Of a stretch of 32,343 bases of DNA, positions 2,416-31,654 are shown in pieces; position 1 is the first letter of the stretch, and the number at the start of each line of letters is the position of its first letter. The notes below the pieces were generated by a model. It had not been told where the DNA came from, searched no databases, and worked only from the letters and a program-made list of their open reading frames with translations. Source of the stretch: a virus; IMG/VR virus record IMGVR_UViG_3300035688_000042, positions 1 through 32,343 of that record, one strand, 5' to 3'. The position numbers were made by a program, and so were the translations under genes.

Positions 2416-3489
2416 TTGAGGTTTATTGGATCAAAAGCTAAGTTGCTATCAACCATAGAAGCTGTGGTCAAGAAGTATTCTGACACCGCGCCTACGACTT
2501 TCGGAGACTTGTTTTGTGGAACAGGTGTGGTAAGCCGTCATTTCAAGAGAATGGGGTATGAAGTCACTGCAAATGACAAGCTAGCTTTCTGCAGTGACTT
2601 GGCTAAAGCCGTACTGCTTGTTAATGATGAGCCGCGATTTTCAAAGCTCTTGGATTCTGAGGAAATTACCATAAACAGAGAAATTGAGGGATTATCGCCT
2701 AAACCCTACGATTTTGTCCTTGATTCCCTCAACCGTCTGTCCGGTATAGAAGGTTTTATGTATGATGAATATTCGCCCGAGGGTACTTCTGGAAAAGAAC
2801 ATGTGAGGCGCTATTTCACAGGCTCTAATGCTAAGAGGATTGATGCGATAAGGCAGAGAATAGCTGATTGGGCGGATCATGGTCTGTTAAGTGAAGCTGA
2901 AGAGGCTTTGTTGATAGCTGATCTAATAAGAGCGACAAACAAGGTTGCCAACATTGCTGGTACCTACGGCTATTTTTTGAAAGATTGGGATCGACGTGCT
3001 TTTAAGAGCCTGACTCTGATGCGATCTCGAATCATCAGAAGCGAGAAGCAACACAGAGTCTGCACTAGTGATGCAAATGAATTGGTGAGTCGTGTGGATT
3101 GCAAACTTCTTTATTTTGATCCTCCATATACTTGGCGACATTATGGAGCTTACTATCACATTCTCGAAACCATTGCGAAATGGGATAGACCGAAGGTAAC
3201 AGGCATGTCGGGCATTCGACCTTGGGAGGAAAGTAAATCTCGTTACTGCTACAGGGATGAAGCCGCAGATGCATTGTCAGAACTTATCCAGAAAGCTAAG
3301 GCAGAACATCTCTTCTTGAGTTATAATGACGAAGGTCTAGTTACACATGAAGCAATACTCAAGATTCTTTCAACTAAGGGTAAGCCATCCTGGCAAGCAA
3401 TTTATTACCGTAGATACAGGAGTCACGGAGAGAACAACACAAGAAGCAAAGTTATGGAACGGATATATTATGTTAGAACAGAAAGATGA
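2416..3489 (+). CDS. D12-class adenine-specific DNA methyltransferase (Dam-like)
   Basis: The 357-aa protein begins MRFIGSK, the classic N-terminus of Dam/D12 enzymes, which fixes the TTG start at 2416. Motif I for S-adenosylmethionine is DLFCGTGVVS (residues 31-40). The catalytic motif IV is DPPY (235-238), giving the alpha-class order with the target-recognition region between them. Such enzymes transfer a methyl group to N6 of adenine in a specific duplex site. Its end overlaps the next methyltransferase by 20 bp, so the pair is translated together and probably protects two strands or two sites for the McrB/McrC-like nuclease downstream. The recognition sequence cannot be read from the protein. 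Confidence 0.88.
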   Translation: MRFIGSKAKLLSTIEAVVKKYSDTAPTTFGDLFCGTGVVSRHFKRMGYEVTANDKLAFCSDLAKAVLLVNDEPRFSKLLDSEEITINREIEGLSPKPYDFVLDSLNRLSGIEGFMYDEYSPEGTSGKEHVRRYFTGSNAKRIDAIRQRIADWADHGLLSEAEEALLIADLIRATNKVANIAGTYGYFLKDWDRRAFKSLTLMRSRIIRSEKQHRVCTSDANELVSRVDCKLLYFDPPYTWRHYGAYYHILETIAKWDRPKVTGMSGIRPWEESKSRYCYRDEAADALSELIQKAKAEHLFLSYNDEGLVTHEAILKILSTKGKPSWQAIYYRRYRSHGENNTRSKVMERIYYVRTER

Positions 3490-4420
3490 AAAATCAGGCA
3501 TCCGCTATTCAAAGCCGTTTTGGAGAGTCCTTAAGAGCAACGGTAGACGGAAAAGAGTCGGTGAGTACGGTGTTGATCTAGGGGAGAGAGGAGTGTATGA
3601 TAAGAGGAACACTCTTAACGAGTTAACGGGCAGAGAATGGACTTATTTTCTTAACAGTGTTTGGGTTACTGCATATCCTCCGGCGGCTGCAGACTTTGCC
3701 TTTGACCTCAGAAAAGTTCACCCTTGTCCAAAGCCTCCTCAATTGATGAGAGACATTATTCTCTTTTTTACCAAGACAGACCAATGGATACTTGATCCCT
3801 TCGCTGGAGTTGGAGGGACACTTTTGGGTGCTTCCATATGTGAACACCGTCGACAGTGTGTTGGAATTGAAATAAACAGAGCATTTGCAGAGATTTATCA
3901 CGAAGTATGCGAAAAAATGGGAATACTGCCACAACCGATAATCTGCGATGACGCTAGAAATATGCTCTCACACGATGAGATAAACAGTCGAATGTTCGAC
4001 CTGATCCTGACCGATCCTCCTTATTCTAATCTGATGAATAGACGCAAAAATGGGCAGAAAAAGAAACTATATGATAAGAATGATCCGACACCATTTTCCA
4101 ATGATTCACGAGACATAGGCAATCTGGAGTACAATGAGTTTCTTGCAGAGCTTAGGAAAATATTGGAAAAGTCCATTTCAAGGCTTAGACCAAAGAAATA
4201 TCTAGTTCTCTTCAGCCGGGATTTGCAGCCGATCGAGGCGAAACCAAACCTACTTCATGCTGATGTCATCAATGAAGTCATCAGCATTCCAGGTATTTCC
4301 TACAAAGGTATGCGTATATGGCATGACCAAGCTGTCGATCTCTACCCATTTGGTTACCCGTATGCATTCGTTGCCAACCAGATGCATCAATACATACTGG
4401 TTTTTAGGAAGGAAAAATAA
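3470..4420 (+). CDS. Second amino-type DNA methyltransferase (N4-cytosine/N6-adenine)
   Basis: The frame is open from ATG at 3347, but ATG at 3470 is preferred: it gives a 316-aa protein with a 20-bp overlap and avoids a long overlap with the Dam-like gene. With this start, a conserved HPCPKPPQLMRDI element (residues ~84-96) precedes motif I DPFAGVGGT (109-117), and the catalytic motif IV TDPPYSNL follows at ~181-188. This is the COG0863-like DNA-modification methylase type, methylating exocyclic amino groups. It has no 5-methylcytosine PC motif, unlike the methyltransferases of the original LlaJI system. It forms a modification pair with the upstream gene. A hairpin with a T-run follows its stop. 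Confidence 0.82.
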   Translation: MLEQKDEKSGIRYSKPFWRVLKSNGRRKRVGEYGVDLGERGVYDKRNTLNELTGREWTYFLNSVWVTAYPPAAADFAFDLRKVHPCPKPPQLMRDIILFFTKTDQWILDPFAGVGGTLLGASICEHRRQCVGIEINRAFAEIYHEVCEKMGILPQPIICDDARNMLSHDEINSRMFDLILTDPPYSNLMNRRKNGQKKKLYDKNDPTPFSNDSRDIGNLEYNEFLAELRKILEKSISRLRPKKYLVLFSRDLQPIEAKPNLLHADVINEVISIPGISYKGMRIWHDQAVDLYPFGYPYAFVANQMHQYILVFRKEK

Positions 4421-4427
4421 TCGAGTC

Positions 4428-4453
4428 AGACCACCTTAGCGTCCGTGGTTTTT
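4428..4453 (+). terminator. Hairpin plus T-run after the methyltransferase pair
   Basis: AGACCAC (4428-4434) pairs with GTGGTTT (4445-4451) across a 10-nt loop, with one G-T wobble, and runs into five T residues. It lies 8 bp after the methyltransferase stop and also covers the stop of the convergent zinc-ribbon gene. Archaea mostly terminate on T-tracts, so the T-run may matter more than the stem. Confidence 0.5.
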
Positions 4454-4613
4454 ACTTCGATTTCGGAATAGTATGACTCAACTCGCCTTTCCTGTAATAG
4501 GCTTTGAACTTCTGTTGGCACTTGTTGCAGTCGAACAGTTTGACATGAAAAACAGAATAGTTCCATTCTTTGTGAGTGTCAGCGGCTTCCTTTCCACACC
4601 TTGGGCATTTCAT
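4452..4613 (-). CDS. Small zinc-ribbon protein, 53 aa
   Basis: Reading leftwards from ATG at 4613, the protein starts MKCPRCGKEA and contains a second pair CNKC at residues 29-32, giving CPxC-x24-CxxC. This is the four-cysteine zinc-ribbon pattern of many tiny archaeal proteins. A basic tail (YYRKGELSHTIPKSK) follows. Such proteins bind zinc and usually contact nucleic acid or a partner protein; no specific function is known. It is convergent with the methyltransferases and divergent from the mcrB-like gene. It therefore splits the restriction island into two transcription units. Confidence 0.65.
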   Translation of the reverse strand: MKCPRCGKEAADTHKEWNYSVFHVKLFDCNKCQQKFKAYYRKGELSHTIPKSK

Positions 4614-4676
4614 ATAAGGTCATCTAGTTCCTGCTGTCGTGACATACGTTGCACTCTATTATTGAAAGTCTGAGAG

Positions 4677-4683
4677 TATAAAT
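4677..4683 (+). promoter_or_regulatory. TATA element for the mcrB-mcrC operon
   Basis: TATAAAT lies 38-44 nt before the TTG start at 4721. With the terminator at 4428-4453, this indicates that the restriction genes are transcribed separately from the modification genes. Confidence 0.5.
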
Positions 4684-4720
4684 GATTTTATGTGGCCCGA
4701 TGTGAAAGCTTGGCGCATGA

Positions 4721-6910
4721 TTGAAAAGAAAAAAATTAAAGGTTAGAGATGTGTATGTTCAAGTTATGACAGCGAAACAAGATTTTGTTTACATATTCCA
4801 AGACTACGACCCAAAAGAGTTGCAGGCACTGCCTGAACGTTTCAAGTTATCAGATTTCAATTTCATGATAACAAGTCAAAGAACGATGGCGAGAATACAT
4901 GAGAAGCTAGAGGACATTGATCAAAAGAAAGTTAGTCAAGTGTATGGTAACTTTTGGATTGACCTCAGGGTCTTGGGTCTAGCAAAAGAGAATCAGAATG
5001 AAATTAGTTACTTTGGGAAGACAACTCTGGAATACTTCAGAGGGGAAAAAAGTCCTTTTAAACGTGAACACTTTATTCTCTCAAACATACGGAATAGAAG
5101 CTATGACATCCCGAAGGATGTCCAAGACAGCTATTTTTCCAAGGTGGAGAATCTCAGGAATTATCTTGAGATCATTCCTGTATTAAACCAGAAGGGAAAA
5201 GAGCTTCTTCTTGATGAAGAAAAGGTTTTCTTCACCGAATGCTTGAATACTTTTCCCAAGGCACTAAACCGCTACTTCAGCCTCTCGCCAGATAGACAGA
5301 CTGCTTTGGATTCGTTGCATGAGTCAGGCTTGAAGACCCTTTTTGACCCTAGTGTTCCGACGGAAGCACCTTATGCGAAAGTTGCAAGAAGATTCTGGAA
5401 TGTTTGCCGAACACACCAGAGAAGGACGAATTTCATCAAGTCTGTAATCTTGTCTGGATATGAAGAAAAAGTCAGTAAGAGTAAGCATCATTTCATTCCT
5501 TTTGAAATAATGAGTGCCTACACCAAGATCCTCAACGAGAGATTGCTGATTCCAGTCATCAAGAAGTCAGAAGTCATACAGCTTGCCTTAGGATCAAAGG
5601 CCATCGAAGATATTTTTATCGATGATAACCCGTTGACAATGCCATCAAGAAAGGAGATTCAGGAAACAATATCAGAGATTAGAAAACTGCTACTAATTGA
5701 GGATGATGTCGTGACACAAACAATCTCTAACTTGGTTTCTGGAAGAAACGTAATCATAGCGGGTCCTATAGGAACTGGAAAGACGCATCTAGCTATCCTG
5801 ATCTCGAAACTCGCATGGAAAAAAGAAGGCGGTTATTATCCTGAGGTTGTGACGGCAACCGCTGACTGGACCACTCATGAAGTAATCGGCGGAATATATC
5901 CAAAAGTAGATGAAAACGGTAACGTGAAATACGTTGTTCAACGCGGTTGCGTATATGACAGCGTCGCTAGGAATTGGAAGACCGGCGGTGCTGGAATAGA
6001 AAGAAAAAAAGCCTACGTTGATGGAGAAGAATACACTGGTGTCTGGCTAGTGATTGATGAATTTAATAGAGCCAATATTGATCGTGCGTTTGGAGAGATG
6101 TTCACCGCAATTGAACATGGAAAGTTAAAAGTGCCCACAAGCAAGGAGGGAGAATACTTTGAAGAGATCAGAATACCTAAAGACTATCGAATCATCGGCA
6201 CTCTAAACACTTTTGACAAACACTATCTTTTTAGACTGTCAGACGCATTAAAGAGAAGATTTGCATTTGTGGAATTATTTCCACCTAGGCGAGAAAGGGC
6301 AGAGGAAGAGAAATACTATGTACTAAAGAGAGCGTTTGAAGAATTGTCATACAAGTCTCCTATTTCTGAAAAAATAGTCTTGGATCATGAGAAAAAGACC
6401 ATTGTTCGGGACAAATCTGATCAGGACTTCCTCTCTCTAGTTGACTCGACTTATGAGATAATGAGTTTCATTCGGCTCACCAAGAACCTTGGGACTGCAA
6501 TTCTGATATCAATGTTCAAGTTTATTCTTGTGGATAGCCTTACGAACGACCATCTGGAGAATAGCCTTGACATTGCACTAAAATCAAACGTAGTCCCACA
6601 GTTAGAGAACGTTTCAAAATGGTCATTGGAAGCCATGAGAGCCTTTGCCTGTGAAGATATAACTGACTTTTTCAAGAACGTGAGTCCAGACTCTGTAGAC
6701 TTCAACAAATATGAGACAGAATTTCTGAAACTCGTTCACCTTTATCTAAATAAGGACAATATTCAACACAGACTAGAAAGATTTAGGAAAAAAGATGTAA
6801 CTGAGGAGGAATGGAGGAGCTACGACCCTTGGGCTGGAAAGACAAGACCAAAGTTGCCTCTTTTCAGTCGCTCCCTCACAGAACTCATACAAGAGATCCA
6901 GCTTATGTAA
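4721..6910 (+). CDS. mcrB: McrB-like AAA+ NTPase, motor subunit of a LlaJI-type restriction system
   Basis: The 729-aa protein has an N-terminal region (residues ~1-300) of unknown fold that probably recognises DNA, followed by an AAA+ domain. Walker A is GPIGTGKT (348-355), Walker B WLVIDE followed by FNRANIDRAFGE (442-458), and the McrB-type signature NTFD (496-499). The arginine-finger segment is DALKRRFAF (~508-516). McrB proteins are GTP-driven rings that translocate DNA and activate the McrC nuclease. The TTG start is placed after a TATA element. The downstream mcrC-like gene is 18 bp away. With two methyltransferases upstream, the set fits LlaJI-type restriction (R1 subunit) better than stand-alone methyl-dependent McrBC. 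Confidence 0.82.
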   Translation: MKRKKLKVRDVYVQVMTAKQDFVYIFQDYDPKELQALPERFKLSDFNFMITSQRTMARIHEKLEDIDQKKVSQVYGNFWIDLRVLGLAKENQNEISYFGKTTLEYFRGEKSPFKREHFILSNIRNRSYDIPKDVQDSYFSKVENLRNYLEIIPVLNQKGKELLLDEEKVFFTECLNTFPKALNRYFSLSPDRQTALDSLHESGLKTLFDPSVPTEAPYAKVARRFWNVCRTHQRRTNFIKSVILSGYEEKVSKSKHHFIPFEIMSAYTKILNERLLIPVIKKSEVIQLALGSKAIEDIFIDDNPLTMPSRKEIQETISEIRKLLLIEDDVVTQTISNLVSGRNVIIAGPIGTGKTHLAILISKLAWKKEGGYYPEVVTATADWTTHEVIGGIYPKVDENGNVKYVVQRGCVYDSVARNWKTGGAGIERKKAYVDGEEYTGVWLVIDEFNRANIDRAFGEMFTAIEHGKLKVPTSKEGEYFEEIRIPKDYRIIGTLNTFDKHYLFRLSDALKRRFAFVELFPPRRERAEEEKYYVLKRAFEELSYKSPISEKIVLDHEKKTIVRDKSDQDFLSLVDSTYEIMSFIRLTKNLGTAILISMFKFILVDSLTNDHLENSLDIALKSNVVPQLENVSKWSLEAMRAFACEDITDFFKNVSPDSVDFNKYETEFLKLVHLYLNKDNIQHRLERFRKKDVTEEEWRSYDPWAGKTRPKLPLFSRSLTELIQEIQLM

Positions 6911-6928
6911 ACAGGTGAGAGCCGCAAG

Positions 6929-8332
6929 TTGTCAAAGCAGCTTCTCCTTAACGAAATAGAACGGATTTTTATCGAAAATGAAGAAAAACAAGAGAACATG
7001 GTAGATGAAAAATATGCCTTTACGAAATACCCTCATTTGCTTTCCCTTTTTGAGCATTACAAAGTCAAAGGAGAGAAATGGCATCAGCTAGTGAGGGAAG
7101 TTGCCGTCTTTCCAAAAGACGACCTTCAATACATGTATGGTCGGACAATGCAGCTTCTCAGACGGTTCCTCAAAGACGTTCGCCTATACTTTAGCGTGAA
7201 AACAGAAATAGGCACGTACACTCTTCCCGACAGAATTTCCGATTTGAATCGACTTTTTGAGCTTTACATTGAGTTCTTCACCGTGATATACCCAAATATA
7301 AGTAAAAGGTTGCGCTTTGAGGTTCATTCCCAAGAGCAAGAGTCAAGAATCTTGCGTGGCCGAGTCCTTTGGCCCAAAACGATAGAACGTTGCATCAGTG
7401 AAGGCGACCACACATGTCCAACAACTTTTGCCACGGTTATGCAGAGATATGAATTTGAGACGCCTGAGAACATATTAACGATTCTCTCAGTACTAAGACT
7501 CAAACAGGATTCACTTTTTCTGCTACGATACAATTTCCAAGACCCTCTTTCAACCGGAGAGCGGGCTATACTTGGCAAGATCGTAGATGGCTGCGACAAC
7601 ATTCTAAGAATAACATTGCTTAAGGAATTGCTTCCTCTTGCAGCAAAATACGTGACTATGAGGTTTGAAGACCCTCGGATACTGCTCCTAGAAAACCAAA
7701 GCTATACAAGGCTACGTGGCGAACGTGAAACCAATCCCTATTTACGCCTTCTGCAATGGATACAAAAATACAGAGAGCTAAATCTACGTTCAGTCTCAAT
7801 AAACAAGACGAGTTTTCCTGTTGATCGTCTCCAGAATTTAGATACTATGTTTGAAGTTTGGGTACTGTTCGAACTCTTGGATTATTTTCGAACCTATGAA
7901 GGGGCAGAAATAACAATTGAACGAATGCCACAGAAATTCAGAATTTCAGCACACGGAACGGATTTCATCCTTTTCTATGAAAAGGCATATTCAGGTTGGG
8001 CGATAAATGCAAACCCTGATTTTTCAATCGAGAAAAATGGTGAGCTGAAGATTATAATGGATGCCAAGAACTGGCTCCAACCAAAAACCGAAGCCGTCTA
8101 TAAAATGTTAGGCTATTTAAATAACCTAGATGGGACTATTGGAATACTCTTCTTCCCCAATGAGGCTTCTTTGGGCGGCGAACGAATTTTTGAAGGACAT
8201 GACTTGCAACATCATAAAAAGCAATTACTTTTCAATTGCGTTGTAAAACCGTCCGGTTCTGAAGAGGCAATTCATCGGAAACAGGATGCGCTTAAACAGA
8301 CTGTTGGGATAATATTCCAGAATCTCAGCTAG
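6929..8332 (+). CDS. mcrC: McrC-like PD-(D/E)XK nuclease, cutting subunit of a LlaJI-type system
   Basis: TTG at 6929 follows a clear GGTGA at 6913-6917. The protein has 467 aa. Residues ~1-290 are mostly helical and likely dock onto the AAA+ ring. The C-terminal half carries the nuclease: a conserved glutamate at E309 (TMFEVWVLFELL), then NPDFSIE with D364, and the catalytic DAK (378-380) after the strand LKIIMD. A helix YKMLGYL follows, as in McrC and LlaJI R2 proteins. It would make double-strand cuts when the motor subunit loads. The close upstream mcrB-like gene supports this. I infer that the methyltransferases at 2416-4420 provide self-protection. Confidence 0.8.
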   Translation: MSKQLLLNEIERIFIENEEKQENMVDEKYAFTKYPHLLSLFEHYKVKGEKWHQLVREVAVFPKDDLQYMYGRTMQLLRRFLKDVRLYFSVKTEIGTYTLPDRISDLNRLFELYIEFFTVIYPNISKRLRFEVHSQEQESRILRGRVLWPKTIERCISEGDHTCPTTFATVMQRYEFETPENILTILSVLRLKQDSLFLLRYNFQDPLSTGERAILGKIVDGCDNILRITLLKELLPLAAKYVTMRFEDPRILLLENQSYTRLRGERETNPYLRLLQWIQKYRELNLRSVSINKTSFPVDRLQNLDTMFEVWVLFELLDYFRTYEGAEITIERMPQKFRISAHGTDFILFYEKAYSGWAINANPDFSIEKNGELKIIMDAKNWLQPKTEAVYKMLGYLNNLDGTIGILFFPNEASLGGERIFEGHDLQHHKKQLLFNCVVKPSGSEEAIHRKQDALKQTVGIIFQNLS

Positions 8333-15981: not shown

Positions 15982-16587
15982 CTATTCTACCCCATGGCGA
16001 TACATTGCTTCTTCGCCTGCCCTGGTTATGCCATGCATCTTCGCCGGAGTCTCAGAAGCAGCTTCATTGTAGCCTTTAACAGCTGAGGTTGCAGCATTCA
16101 TGTTCGCTGCGAAGACTGCTACTGCCGCTGCAGCAGCAACAAGCACGCCGATCCCTATTCCCGTTAGAGCGATCGCCGCTGCCTGGCTAATGTTGAAAGC
16201 GTTCTGGGCTGCCGTTGCGATAGCCAAGAATCCTGAATGTATCTTGTGAGCTATACCTGAGAGACCCAGGACTGACGCGTTTGCTGTTTGTGTGGCAGTG
16301 TTTACGGCTACCGAGGCCGTGTGCCCGGTCGTGAGAAGTGTGAGGTAGGACTGCATTCTCGCGAAAGTAGAAATCGTTGTGATGACAAGCATTATAGTGC
16401 GTACCCATTTGGACGTCTCTTTATCTATAATGCCGAAGTCAGCTGCAAGCGTAGTCAGATGTATCCCCATCGAGCCCACAGTGCTTATTGCCCTGGCAAC
16501 TGATGTTAGGCTTACTTCAACGGCCTCACATGTAGGTGTGGCCTCATTGACGCCGCGAATAACGAAGTTGATTTCTCCCAAACTCAT
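15982..16587 (-). CDS. Short tail tape-measure-like protein, 201 aa
   Basis: The protein is alanine-, threonine- and isoleucine-rich and mostly helical. A helix spans the N-terminal ~45 residues, hydrophobic stretches lie at ~62-85 (WVRTIMLVITTISTFARMQSYLTLL) and ~135-160 (AAAIALTGIGIGVLVAAAAAVAVFAA), and the tail is small and charged. It directly follows the chaperone/gp10 block and precedes the hub, which is the tape-measure position in long-tailed viruses. It would set tail length and pass through the membrane on DNA entry. At ~0.15 nm per residue it would specify a tail near 30 nm, very short for a siphovirus. The 4-bp overlap with the gp10-like gene supports co-translation. Confidence 0.6.
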   Translation of the reverse strand: MSLGEINFVIRGVNEATPTCEAVEVSLTSVARAISTVGSMGIHLTTLAADFGIIDKETSKWVRTIMLVITTISTFARMQSYLTLLTTGHTASVAVNTATQTANASVLGLSGIAHKIHSGFLAIATAAQNAFNISQAAAIALTGIGIGVLVAAAAAVAVFAANMNAATSAVKGYNEAASETPAKMHGITRAGEEAMYRHGVE

Positions 16588-16958
16588 TCTACTGCTGCCT
16601 CTCTTGTTGCATGTTCGAAACTTGATTGAAGGATGGATAGAAGCCTAGGCGCCGTCTCGGCAAGGGCTCGCGTTAAGAAGTAGCGGGGCTGAATGTACCT
16701 TGTTCCGAACTCTTGAAAATAAGCGTAGGGCACGTAGCAGCCAACTTTGATTATCCAGCGGTATATCACCTGAGCGTAGATGCTCTGCATCAGACGCCCC
16801 GTTCGAATCGGCGCCAGGACCTTCGCACGCCACATCATGTCTTCAGCCAACTCAACAAGGCCCTGTTGGACTTGCTCCTGCATGGCCTCGTCAAGCCGCC
16901 TAATCTTGCGGGAGAAGCTTTCAATGTCGCTGGCTTCAACTCTGATCTCGATGCTCAA
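16584..16958 (-). CDS. HK97 gp10-like tail/neck component, 124 aa
   Basis: The protein matches the HK97-gp10 family pattern. An N-terminal strand and helix (IEIRVEASDIESFSRKIRRLDEAM) are followed by a long helix with AEDMMWRAKVLAPIRTGRLMQSI, then strands and the hallmark VPYAYFQEFGT...IQPRYFLTRAL. Family members are minor tail or head-tail completion proteins, usually encoded upstream of the tail tube. Here the gene lies between the tail chaperones and the tape measure, an unusual place. It overlaps both neighbours by 4 bp. Confidence 0.75.
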   Translation of the reverse strand: MSIEIRVEASDIESFSRKIRRLDEAMQEQVQQGLVELAEDMMWRAKVLAPIRTGRLMQSIYAQVIYRWIIKVGCYVPYAYFQEFGTRYIQPRYFLTRALAETAPRLLSILQSSFEHATREAAVE

Positions 16959-17167
16959 AATGCTCTGCCTCTGAACGTGTTTGTCTGCGGTTTGGCTTTG
17001 TCTAGTTCCTCTTGCGCTTGCCGGTCCATCTCGCCGAGAATAAGCAGAAACTCATGGACCTTCTTTGCCGGCTGCGCATCAAGCTGCTGAACGGTCCAAC
17101 CGAATTCTTTGCATAGCCGAAAGTCTGCGAGGGCTGGATGTGGCTTTCCACTCCTCATCGCCCTCAA
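16955..17167 (-). CDS. Tail-assembly chaperone, second ORF (frameshift extension), 70 aa
   Basis: This ORF lies immediately 3' of the first chaperone ORF in the -1 frame. As a free gene it would need TTG at 17167, inside the stop region of the upstream ORF (TTGA overlap). As a frameshift product it joins after a slippery A AAA AAC to give a fusion of about 182 aa. Its content (HPALADFRLCKEFGWTVQQLD, then KKVHEFLLILGEMDRQAQEELDKA) resembles the second half of GT-type tail chaperones, which coat the tape measure and recruit tail tube subunits. Small size, position before the tape measure and the -1 relation all support this. Confidence 0.65.
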   Translation of the reverse strand: MRAMRSGKPHPALADFRLCKEFGWTVQQLDAQPAKKVHEFLLILGEMDRQAQEELDKAKPQTNTFRGRAF

Positions 17168-17176
17168 GAGTTTTTT
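17129..17176 (-). promoter_or_regulatory. Programmed -1 ribosomal frameshift site
   Basis: On the minus strand the heptamer A AAA AAC occupies 17176 to 17170 and is in the correct register of the upstream ORF (codons ACA AAA AAC). The zero frame then reaches TGA at 17166-17164, while the -1 frame reads CTC TTG AGG and enters the next ORF. Four nt after the heptamer, GAGGGC (17165-17160) can pair with GCCCTC (17134-17129). A nested GTGG/CCAC hairpin with an AAAG loop lies inside. Heptamer, register, spacing and stem are all seen directly; use in the cell is inferred. Confidence 0.65.
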
Positions 17177-17502
17177 GTTTCATCAGGTCCTATGCTGTTG
17201 AGCCTGTTTGCTGCTCTAGCCAGAAGCTCGCCCAAGCCTATTGGGATACCATTGTCTCCTTCGCTCAGAAATCGTTCAAGCGTTATCGGCTTGCTTGGCG
17301 GCTGCTCCTTAAGGCTTGCGAGAAGGGTTTCTGCTTGAATGGCCACGTGATCGATGTTAATGACTCTTCCAGTTTGAGGGTTGTAGTGCGTGTTTTTCGT
17401 TATGATTCTGCTGCGTTTCGCCCAAGTGATCTCTTGGAGAACGTATTTTCCTTTGAACTCTTCGCCGTAGGTCTCATCTACTTCAACTATTGTTGTTTTC
17501 AT
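17164..17502 (-). CDS. Tail-assembly chaperone, first ORF (gpG-like), 112 aa
   Basis: The frame is open from 17550, but ATG at 17502 lies 2 nt after the tail-tube stop and gives a natural start MKTTIVEVDETYGEEF. The protein has an N-terminal strand pair (YVLQEITWAKRSRIITKNTHY) and a helical half (DHVAIQAETLLASL, ITLERFLSEGDNGIPIGLGELLARAANRL), as in siphovirus gpG/gp14-type chaperones. It would keep the tape measure soluble during tail assembly and be absent from mature particles. The last codons before the stop hold the slippery A AAA AAC, so a fraction of ribosomes may extend into the next ORF. Confidence 0.7.
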   Translation of the reverse strand: MKTTIVEVDETYGEEFKGKYVLQEITWAKRSRIITKNTHYNPQTGRVINIDHVAIQAETLLASLKEQPPSKPITLERFLSEGDNGIPIGLGELLARAANRLNSIGPDETKNS

Positions 17503-17504
17503 TT

Positions 17505-18395
17505 TTAGTAACCTACCGAAAGCGTTAATGATCTTGCTGTGAACGGGCACTTAACCGGGACGAGATCCTCAATCTTAGTTAGAAAACTCGCGGAGCTCCA
17601 CTTGCAGCCAGCAAACGTGAATTTATGTCGCCCTTCCAACGTGCTTACCATGCCTATTTCCAAGGTGAACTCTGTGTCAGCGATGATATCATCTGCCTCT
17701 GCTTTACTCTCGAATTCGAAGATTAGCTCGCCGTCGATTGCGCGGTGCCTTGGCTGCAGGTACATCAGCACATCAGCTCCCGTTGCGCCACTTGGATCCC
17801 TGAACACCGGGACCCGCTTCAGATTGTTATTGAGTGTCCAACGCCAGTCTGTGCACCTTAAAAGTAGGCTTCCAGCCTTCTTGATGTAAGTGTCTACCCA
17901 ACTCACGGGGGCTTCAGCATATGGTGTGTTAGCAGTATTGATTTTCGCTGTTCCCGTTATGGGTCTCTGAGCCCACAGTTCGCTGCTTACGATAACGTTC
18001 TGCTCCATTCCGCATGCCATTTCAATCTTGTTGAATTTGCAGCCTGCGAACTGCAGTGAGATGACTCCTCCGCTTGGAACGCCCGTATAAGCAGCTTCAA
18101 TGTACATGCTGTCTCCTTCGGAAGCATTCATGATTCCGTGCTCGATGAACTCGTATGGCCTGTAGGTTTGCGGAATATGCTTGACTTTGAGTATTGGTGT
18201 CTGTAAGCCCTTCTTGATGAAGTACAAGTCGCGGCTGCCAACGCCTGGAACCTTGATGTTTGACCGTTCTATAAGCGGTTCGAATTCTTCTGCTAGAAGC
18301 TGAGGAAACCAGAAAGGCGCGCCTGGCAGCTGGCCATAGGTTGATTCTAGGCACCATGCTAGTATTGCTTCATGTGCTCCTAATGGATGTGCCAT
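17505..18395 (-). CDS. Major tail tube protein, 296 aa
   Basis: The protein begins MAHPLGAHEAILAWCLESTYG, a typical tail-tube N-terminus. It has beta-rich repeats around VISLQFAGCKFNKIEMACGM and HKFTFAGCKWSSASFLTKIEDLVPVKCPFTARSLTLS, and the last element resembles the C-terminal strand of Phage_tube-type proteins. The two FAGCK motifs suggest a duplicated core. Such proteins stack as hexameric rings around the tape measure to form the DNA channel. No sheath gene is present, so the tail is non-contractile. The chaperone gene follows with 2 nt between. Confidence 0.7.
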   Translation of the reverse strand: MAHPLGAHEAILAWCLESTYGQLPGAPFWFPQLLAEEFEPLIERSNIKVPGVGSRDLYFIKKGLQTPILKVKHIPQTYRPYEFIEHGIMNASEGDSMYIEAAYTGVPSGGVISLQFAGCKFNKIEMACGMEQNVIVSSELWAQRPITGTAKINTANTPYAEAPVSWVDTYIKKAGSLLLRCTDWRWTLNNNLKRVPVFRDPSGATGADVLMYLQPRHRAIDGELIFEFESKAEADDIIADTEFTLEIGMVSTLEGRHKFTFAGCKWSSASFLTKIEDLVPVKCPFTARSLTLSVGY

Positions 18396-29164: not shown

Positions 29165-30268
29165 TTGACAACAGAACCACGCATAGAATTGCTTGCTCAA
29201 CAGTTTATCCAAGCATATCTGAGGAAAATCAGGCATTCATCATCAATGTTCTCATACAGAGACTGGGGGGTATTCCCGAGATATTGGTTTCATCCTATCA
29301 AGATCGGGATTTTTCAAACGAACACAAGTGATATTGCGGTTAGCTTCGGAGACCTTGCAAAAGCAAAGGAAGATAGGATGAGAACGATTCAGTGGAATGG
29401 TCGAATAGAGGAGAGCCAGTTTCCTAACCTCAACTACGAAGAATGGCCAATGTTTAATGTTCCTAGCGGGACTCATCACAGTATGATGAAAGGAGGCACG
29501 CTCTCAGTAGGCAACCATCCAGTCATAGTATTGGGGCAAGGAGTGGAGTTTAAACTGATGAATATCAGAGTCGAGGCGTGCGTAAGAGGCTATCCTCGAG
29601 AGAGAGAATTCATCTGGTTTTTCACTGATCCATGCAGAACATATCTAGTTAGTCAAGAAAGAGCAGAAGAAGAGGCTTTGCACGATTTTTGGGACACAAT
29701 AGGCTCTATTGTCTTTACCAAGTTGGACTCAATCGCGGGGCGCAAGTTGAACTCCGACATAGTTAGTATTCTTCTTGACTCTGTCAACAGGCTTCAAAAG
29801 GAGTATCACTCATTGATAACACTGGAAGATATTGAGGAACAACGCCTTCAAAACTTCCTCGAGAATCACTTCTTTCTGATCGATCCAAATCAGAGTTACA
29901 CTAAGGAAAAACGGCAGCTGGGTCCCTACTATCCCGACTTTGTCTTGAGATATGCAGATGGCAATATTACGTTTGTAGAGATTCAGCGGAACAATGACCC
30001 CTTCATAGAAAACGGTGCGCTATCCAAGGGTCTGAAAGAAGCGATCGGACAGTTAAGAAGCTGGTTCGAATGGATAAGCGCAAACCAGCCAGCGCTTTTT
30101 TCAAAATGTTCAGGTCTCATTATTATTGGTCGAAGGCCGGATTATGAGAAAAACAAAAAACTAATTGAGAAGGCCCTGTCAAATATGTTACGTCCTGTGA
30201 GACTAGTCACATACAATGACCTAGAGGGTTCCTTTGATTATGTAAAGAGCATGCTCAAGACAATGTGA
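29165..30268 (+). CDS. Shedu-like (DUF4263-type) PD-(D/E)XK nuclease with E-x-Q active site
   Basis: The TTG start at 29165 gives 367 aa. The N-terminal ~200 residues are a mixed domain (HPIKIGIFQTNTSDIAVSFGD, GHPVIVLGQGVEFKLMNIRVEACV) that probably senses the trigger. The C-terminal part has the DUF4263 layout: LQNFLENHFFLIDPNQ (a helix starting the nuclease), YYPDFVLRYADGN with D258, and TFVEIQRNNDP with E272 and Q274, then AIGQLRSWFEW. Shedu nucleases cut invading DNA. The usual catalytic lysine is replaced by glutamine, an E-x-Q arrangement known from BglII. It is flanked by the virion module and a TIR-like gene. Confidence 0.65.
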   Translation: MTTEPRIELLAQQFIQAYLRKIRHSSSMFSYRDWGVFPRYWFHPIKIGIFQTNTSDIAVSFGDLAKAKEDRMRTIQWNGRIEESQFPNLNYEEWPMFNVPSGTHHSMMKGGTLSVGNHPVIVLGQGVEFKLMNIRVEACVRGYPREREFIWFFTDPCRTYLVSQERAEEEALHDFWDTIGSIVFTKLDSIAGRKLNSDIVSILLDSVNRLQKEYHSLITLEDIEEQRLQNFLENHFFLIDPNQSYTKEKRQLGPYYPDFVLRYADGNITFVEIQRNNDPFIENGALSKGLKEAIGQLRSWFEWISANQPALFSKCSGLIIIGRRPDYEKNKKLIEKALSNMLRPVRLVTYNDLEGSFDYVKSMLKTM

Positions 30269-30616: not shown

Positions 30617-31654
30617 CTATGGTTTTCTGAAATCGGTCAAAGCCTTCTGCAATTTCATTGCTGTATTGAAAGTGAGTTCGTCGCCTTCATATTCGCTTCG
30701 ATAGAGACCTTGCAAGTTGGAAGGCAACTGCACCTTTTTGTCCACAAGCAAAATCACTTTCTTGTTGTACTTGAGGAAAGCTCCGCCGATTTCTATGAGA
30801 ACATTAGGATTTATCCCGTAAGTTTCATCCGCTCTCTTTTCTTGTTCGTCCGCACTTACGTTTATTATTGCACAATCACAATCTCTCATCAATCCAAAAA
30901 TCTTATCTGGAATCGGAATAGCAGTAGTTTCTGTTTCTTCGGCTACTACGTGTTGGAACTGCCCAAAATCCAAGATTTGTTTTATTTGGTCAACTATCTT
31001 CTTGTTCTTACTGTGAGAAATGAAAACTCGTGGTTTCTTGGTTTCTTCCGTTGCCAACTCTGCTGGCAATCCCTCTTTCTTTTTTTTTGCCTCTCCTTCC
31101 GCTTCTTCTTCACCTTCTCCTTCTGGCGAAACTATAGGAGTAGTCTCGAAAACGGCACGCGAAGCGCCTGCTACCTCTCTAATTATCCCAGAGAACCTTC
31201 CGTTCGTTACTATGAGATTATGGCACTCATCCACATGCTCAGGTGGAACATCAAACTCATCTTTCAAGAGTTTTTTTGCGTATTCGTCTGTGGGTAGTTT
31301 AGCATCGCGATATCTTTGGTAGAAACTCTGAAATACAGGTACTTTTTGGCAAGCTTCTTGGAGAAACGGTACTCTTTCCGTCCCTTTTGCCTTAACGACC
31401 GATTCTCCTAAGGGCGTGAGATTGATATATTCAGATTTCTCGTTTCCTTGTGTAAGCCCGTACTTGAAAGACGCACTAATTAAATACTTGAAATTGGTAC
31501 TTTCAGGTTTTATTTTCAAATGGTCTGCGATGAAAATTCTTTTCATTGGTTTACCATTGTTCTGGTCTTGAATTGTCTGAGCAAACCTTAGAGCATCTTC
31601 CAGCGTATTTCTTGGAAAAGGTCTTTGCTTTCTGGATTCTGTCTCTTCGCTCAT
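30617..31654 (-). CDS. TIR-like (CAP12-type) nucleotide-binding protein with N-terminal DNA-binding-like domain
   Basis: ATG at 31654 follows GAGAGG and a TATA element (TTAAATA, 31697-31691 on the minus strand). Residues ~13-100 (RNTLEDALRFAQTIQD, FIADHLKIKPESTNFKYLISASFKYGLT, INLTPLGESVV) resemble a winged-helix domain. Residues ~180-200 are an acidic/basic low-complexity linker. Residues ~207-340 match the TIR-like predicted nucleotide-binding fold: VFISHSKNKK, DCDCAIINVSADE, NPNVLIEIGGAFLKYNKKVILLVD (likely catalytic E288) and LPSNLQGLY. Such TIR-like domains serve as NAD-cleaving or cyclic-nucleotide-sensing effectors in antiviral systems. The substrate here is unknown. Confidence 0.7.
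   Translation of the reverse strand: MSEETESRKQRPFPRNTLEDALRFAQTIQDQNNGKPMKRIFIADHLKIKPESTNFKYLISASFKYGLTQGNEKSEYINLTPLGESVVKAKGTERVPFLQEACQKVPVFQSFYQRYRDAKLPTDEYAKKLLKDEFDVPPEHVDECHNLIVTNGRFSGIIREVAGASRAVFETTPIVSPEGEGEEEAEGEAKKKKEGLPAELATEETKKPRVFISHSKNKKIVDQIKQILDFGQFQHVVAEETETTAIPIPDKIFGLMRDCDCAIINVSADEQEKRADETYGINPNVLIEIGGAFLKYNKKVILLVDKKVQLPSNLQGLYRSEYEGDELTFNTAMKLQKALTDFRKP

Follow-up and report, generated by a model that had tools for sequence, protein, structure and literature searches.

Two short open reading frames lie directly behind the tail tube gene of the uncultured virus IMGVR_UViG_3300035688_000042. They overlap, and the second is in the -1 frame relative to the first, as in G/GT-type tail chaperone genes. 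This raises the question of whether the second frame is translated on its own or is reached by a shift of the ribosome at the end of the first. The whole record, positions 1 to 32,343 (32,343 nt), was analyzed and is referred to as the window; the chaperone locus is on its minus strand (Table 1). Comparison with related loci indicates that the genes form a G/GT-type tail assembly chaperone operon of a tailed virus of Bathyarchaeia, and that a programmed -1 shift of the ribosome almost certainly connects them.

Table 1. Positions of the chaperone genes, junction elements and neighboring genes in the window
Feature	Position	Strand	Basis
ORF1, G-type tail assembly chaperone, 112 aa, 0 frame	17164..17502	-	translation, fold, HCTV-1 match
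Slippery heptamer A AAA AAC, in register	17170..17176	-	kept as A6/T6 heptamer in 216/216 relatives
ORF1 0-frame stop TGA, one codon past heptamer	17164..17166	-	sequence
T domain (ORF2), -1 frame after slip, 71 aa + stop	16955..17170	-	phrog_9001; Andromedavirus chaperones
In-frame ATG of ORF2, possible independent start	17156..17158	-	start codon in 65/65 A-type junctions
Downstream hairpin	17129..17165	-	outer arms 17160-17165 / 17129-17134, inner 17148-17151 / 17140-17143
Tail tube protein, upstream neighbor	17505..18395	-	PF18906 Phage_tube_2, E 3.3e-11
HK97-gp10-like tail completion protein, downstream neighbor	16584..16958	-	PF04883, phrog_5; 138/140 representative loci
Short hydrophobic protein, tape-measure position	15982..16587	-	position + composition only; 130/140 representative loci

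The locus and its products

The 3' end of ORF1 reads ...GAA ACA AAA AAC TCT TGA on the minus strand, and the heptamer A AAA AAC is in exact reading register, as the first-pass annotation had noticed. That annotation had also proposed that a -1 slip leads into ORF2 and yields a fusion of about 182 aa. The translation agrees with this, as 111 residues of ORF1 are followed by 71 residues of ORF2 to give 182 aa, with the junction ...DETKN/LLRAMRSG....

The assignment of the pair to the tail assembly chaperones, made at the same time, was confirmed for both proteins. An AlphaFold2 model of ORF1 (pLDDT 92) matched YqbN best (3KLU, Z 8.6), followed by gp13, the tail assembly chaperone of HK97 (2OB9, Z 7.2); the next match had a Z score of 4.6. 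Named viral chaperones were among the best matches of the ORF1 model to viral models. The tail assembly chaperone of HCTV-1 was matched with an E value of 2.7e-4, and further matches were a protein of an uncultured archaeal virus and the chaperone of Bacillus phage Gemini. ORF2 matched phrog_9001, 'tail assembly chaperone' (E 2.5e-10), and the tail assembly chaperones of Andromedavirus phages. These matches, on the ORF1 side to a predicted structure, support ORF1 and ORF2 as a tail assembly chaperone pair in which ORF1 has the HK97 gp13/YqbN fold.

Behind tube, G and T come the gp10-like gene, the short hydrophobic gene and then a gene for a large tail protein, and this order was maintained in the relatives. 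The short hydrophobic protein, separated from T by the gp10-like gene, had no family match in domain-family and PHROG searches; from its position and composition it is a candidate for a short tape measure protein. It comprises 201 aa in the window and about 155-305 aa in the relatives, and a very short tail would be implied if the 201-aa protein is the tape measure.

Three other regions of the window were also noted. The gene at 30617-31654 (minus strand) encodes a C-terminal CAP12/Pycsar-type TIR domain (PF10137, E 9e-17), a defense-like effector in a virus. In the gene at 29165-30268 (plus strand) the C-terminal domain of Shedu SduA was recognized (PF14082, E 4e-13). The stretch at 2416-8332 (plus strand) is a restriction-like cluster, with consecutive genes for two DNA methyltransferases, an AAA_5 ATPase and a McrBC-like protein.

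Conservation of the slip site

Relatives were collected with profiles of ORF1 and ORF2 that did not include the junction; from the searches in IMG/VR the best 80 of 381 and the best 80 of 352 confirmed stretches were used. Genome assemblies contributed 26 loci, and an additional scan led by a divergent member, with search patterns far from the junction, added 80 loci. The two first scans were single-protein queries and one ORF2 pattern touched the junction, but the loci found in this way were a minority; for the most part the searches drew on sequence outside the junction. In total 216 distinct junctions were obtained. Start codon, stop codon and run length were determined for 151 distinct junctions, 65 of them A-type and 86 T-type, as defined by the heptamer; neighboring genes were counted in 140 representative loci.

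All 216 junctions had ORF2 in the -1 frame together with an in-register A6 or T6 heptamer. T TTT TTA was the most frequent (128 junctions), followed by A AAA AAC (63), T TTT TTG (19), A AAA AAT (4) and A AAA AAA (2). In-register heptamers of these types occurred at only 2 of 20,432 codon positions in the ORF1 bodies of the relatives. Fifteen further genes of the window, with 5,196 codon positions, contained none. The case named beforehand as speaking against frameshifting, homologues that keep both ORFs while the slip site is destroyed, was looked for and was not encountered in any of the 216 junctions.

The codon that supplies the first base of the heptamer varied (CGT, GCT, ACA, GCA and others), while its third base always fitted the heptamer; the constraint thus acts on the nucleotides and not on the protein. 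Wherever a relative had lost A AAA AAC, T TTT TTA or T TTT TTG was present in the same register. In one pair of loci (L015 and L093) the chaperone proteins were 88% identical and the flanking DNA was very similar, and about 45 nt at the junction had been replaced, changing A AAA AAC to T TTT TTA. This junction looks as if the frameshift signal had moved as a small cassette. On the best tree the heptamer type switched at least 10 times, although only 2 independent type contrasts were located on well-supported branches. Comparison of the sequences thus establishes the slip site, its register and its replacement by other slip sites, and selection on the site is clear at this level.

Two types of junction

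The window belongs to the A-type, which combines A AAA AAC with a downstream hairpin and an ATG. In the A-type the 0 frame ended within five codons in 61 of 65 junctions, and codon 4 of ORF2 was a start codon in every junction (64 ATG, 1 GTG). It usually lay inside the ORF1 stop or directly behind it, and was closely preceded by GAGGG. This start codon was retained even in the four junctions without a nearby stop. The ATG lies inside the hairpin and usually supplies a TGA in the 0 frame. The statement of the first-pass annotation that ORF2 has no good independent start beyond TTG was therefore wrong for this virus, as an in-frame ATG directly follows the ORF1 stop, but it does fit most T-type relatives. 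In the T-type the corresponding codon was not a start in 84 of 86 junctions, and a search for ATG, GTG or TTG in the first 15 codons of ORF2 found none in 84 of 86. Being mostly without a start codon, the T-type ORF2 can mostly be expressed only by shifting. In the A-type viruses, including that of the window, production of standalone T from the ATG is possible beside frameshifting.

After the T-type heptamer the 0 frame stayed open for 25-49 codons, across ORF2. No stop was present in 0-frame codons 5-23 of the 86 T-type junctions, compared with a stop in 16 of the 65 A-type junctions (Fisher p 4e-7, with kinship ignored). This suggests that either an extended unshifted protein or a distant stop matters in the T-type. 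The association of heptamer type with start codon, stop codon and hairpin was near-perfect, but with the two well-supported contrasts a test for correlated evolution gave no significance.

In the window the hairpin is formed by GAGGGC pairing with GCCCTC, enclosing GTGG/CCAC, and the 45 nt past the heptamer fold at -19.0 kcal/mol. The mean MFE of the A-type junctions was -14.5, compared with -10.9 after synonymous recoding. RNAalifold found no consensus pairs on the A-type alignment, and per-pair covariation in one fixed register was not above that of shuffled alignments, probably as the register of pairing is shifted between subclades; a test that does not depend on a fixed register was therefore used. 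In this test the mean MFE was -14.6, compared with -13.6 in column-wise synonymous permutations, of which none of 100 was as low (Z -3.3). A-type windows further downstream gave no folding signal in the permutation test, and no downstream hairpin was found in the T-type up to 165 nt. Conservation of the hairpin is thus supported, as judged from predicted folding, for the A-type relatives only. The alignment of homologues that had been proposed as a check on heptamer and stem showed conservation of the heptamer throughout, and of the stem, which does exist in the window, in the A-type but not in the T-type. An upstream Shine-Dalgarno stimulator was also sought, but anti-SD pairing was not above the synonymous null in the codons adjoining the site or, for the T-type, in the nearest four codons. 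Some tailed phages seem to lack stimulators (PMC5009743).

Origin of the fusion and comparison with known systems

Three other explanations of the junction were considered. Ribosomes might terminate at the TGA of ORF1 and restart at the ATG of ORF2, the heptamer being incidental. The start codon present in all A-type junctions, the GAGGG just upstream of it and its retention in the four junctions without a nearby stop agree with such reinitiation, and in A-type members it may take place in addition to frameshifting. However, reinitiation leaves both the in-register heptamer in 216 of 216 junctions and the replacement of A-type by T-type sites unaccounted for, it could not serve the 84 of 86 T-type ORF2s whose first 15 codons contain no start, and the spacing between GAGG and ATG is only 3 nt. 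As the sole explanation it is very improbable.

Slippage of the RNA polymerase on the A6/T6 run, inserting a base into some of the mRNAs, would make a ribosomal shift unnecessary, and the site is indeed a homopolymer run of six. Yet the run had a length of exactly six bases in 146 of the 151 junctions and of at most 8 in any of them, and runs of 6-8 are short for known transcriptional slippage. The strict codon register, the hairpin and the fixed set of last bases (C, T or A following A6, and A or G following T6) are characteristic of slippage by the ribosome and without meaning for a polymerase. We regard this explanation as even somewhat less probable than reinitiation. Homopolymer runs are also error-prone on some sequencing platforms, so that an error of sequencing or assembly, or the decay of what was once a single ORF, might produce a similar picture. 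The same -1 offset recurred in the 216 distinct junctions, which came from a large number of metagenomes and genome assemblies, with proteins conserved on both sides of the junction; this recurrence excludes an assembly error, and the chance that error or decay accounts for the locus is negligible.

In the favored reading, programmed -1 frameshifting, most ribosomes would read ORF1 and stop at its TGA to give gpG, while a minority would slip back by one base when they reach A AAA AAC and translate the -1 frame from there, producing the 182-aa gpGT fusion. The slip would be helped by the hairpin, which starts 4-6 nt past the heptamer. By analogy with phage lambda, gpG may coat the tape measure protein and the T part may recruit tube subunits. 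From the junctions and from this analogy we infer that the slip takes place in vivo, and likewise how often it does so, the ratio of G to GT and the function of T.

Long-tailed phages generally make their G/GT chaperones by frameshifting (PMC5009743, PMC8211752); a known case is that of gpG and gpGT of lambda (Levin 1993; Xu 2004, 2013, reviewed in PMC5009743). As in lambda, the tube gene is followed by G and then by T in the -1 frame, the heptamer is near the end of G, and no separate T is needed. The present loci differ from lambda in their heptamers (A AAA AAC or T TTT TTA/G), in the hairpin and conserved ATG added in A-type members, and in the gp10-like gene between T and the presumed tape measure. 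A -1 shift has been predicted for the same gene pair in the haloarchaeal siphoviruses HVTV-1, HCTV-1, HCTV-2 and HCTV-5 (PMC5009743, PMC8211752). HCTV-2 has A_AAA_AAC, the same heptamer as the window, whereas HCTV-1 and HCTV-5 have G_GGA_AAC and G_GGA_AAG. ORF1 is matched by the structure predicted for the chaperone of HCTV-1. These viruses infect haloarchaea and comprise a handful of cases, compared with 216 loci here. The Andromedavirus phages of Bacillus pumilus have a homologous T domain in the -1 frame and, in 8 of 8 loci (L207 and L238-L244), an in-register heptamer located 6 nt upstream of the ORF1 end. Their hosts are bacteria, however, the heptamer is A AAA AAG (3) or A AAA AAA (5), and the chaperone genes are annotated as two separate CDS; these pairs are probably unannotated frameshifts. 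According to a review of archaeal recoding (PMC8211752), the only programmed -1 frameshift reported in Archaea themselves is that of Sulfolobus fucA1, which likewise has an A-rich site and a putative stem-loop but is a cellular enzyme gene.

An archaeal host had been assumed for the window, and this was supported by homology, as 24 of the 26 loci from genome assemblies were titled Bathyarchaeota or Bathyarchaeum. The same locus was also present in a MAG labeled Bipolaricaulis, a bacterium, which is possibly mis-binned. The second codon of the heptamer was AAC, AAT, AAA, UUA or UUG, and AAG in none of 216 junctions. A pattern search located genes for tRNA-Lys(CTT) in two Bathyarchaeota genomes with loci of this kind. 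In another Bathyarchaeota chromosome ARAGORN reported no tRNA-Lys, and several RF00005 matches there were without assignment. A dedicated tRNA-Lys(CUU) reading AAG would re-pair poorly with AAA, which would explain the absence of AAG. On mammalian ribosomes, few sites are as prone to shifting as A AAA AAC (PMC5009743). Tentatively, and with the odds rather against it, the family may be read as a natural record of archaeal slip sites, devoid of AAG as it should be if decoding in hosts with tRNA-Lys(CUU) resembles that of eukaryotes, while the bacterial relatives use AAG or AAA; in addition, A-type viruses would make three products (G, GT and free T from AUG) and T-type viruses two, the control schemes having been switched.

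Frameshifting is not mentioned in two reports on Bathyarchaeia viruses and archaeal proviruses (PMC10848311, PMC11705971). What the present loci add to the known cases is a new host group, the depth of comparison and the alternation between two types of signal. The family adds 216 aligned natural sites from viruses of an abundant uncultured archaeal class, and it makes testable on which heptamers archaeal ribosomes slip and whether a structure is needed. For annotation, the chaperone of these viruses should be given as a joined CDS.
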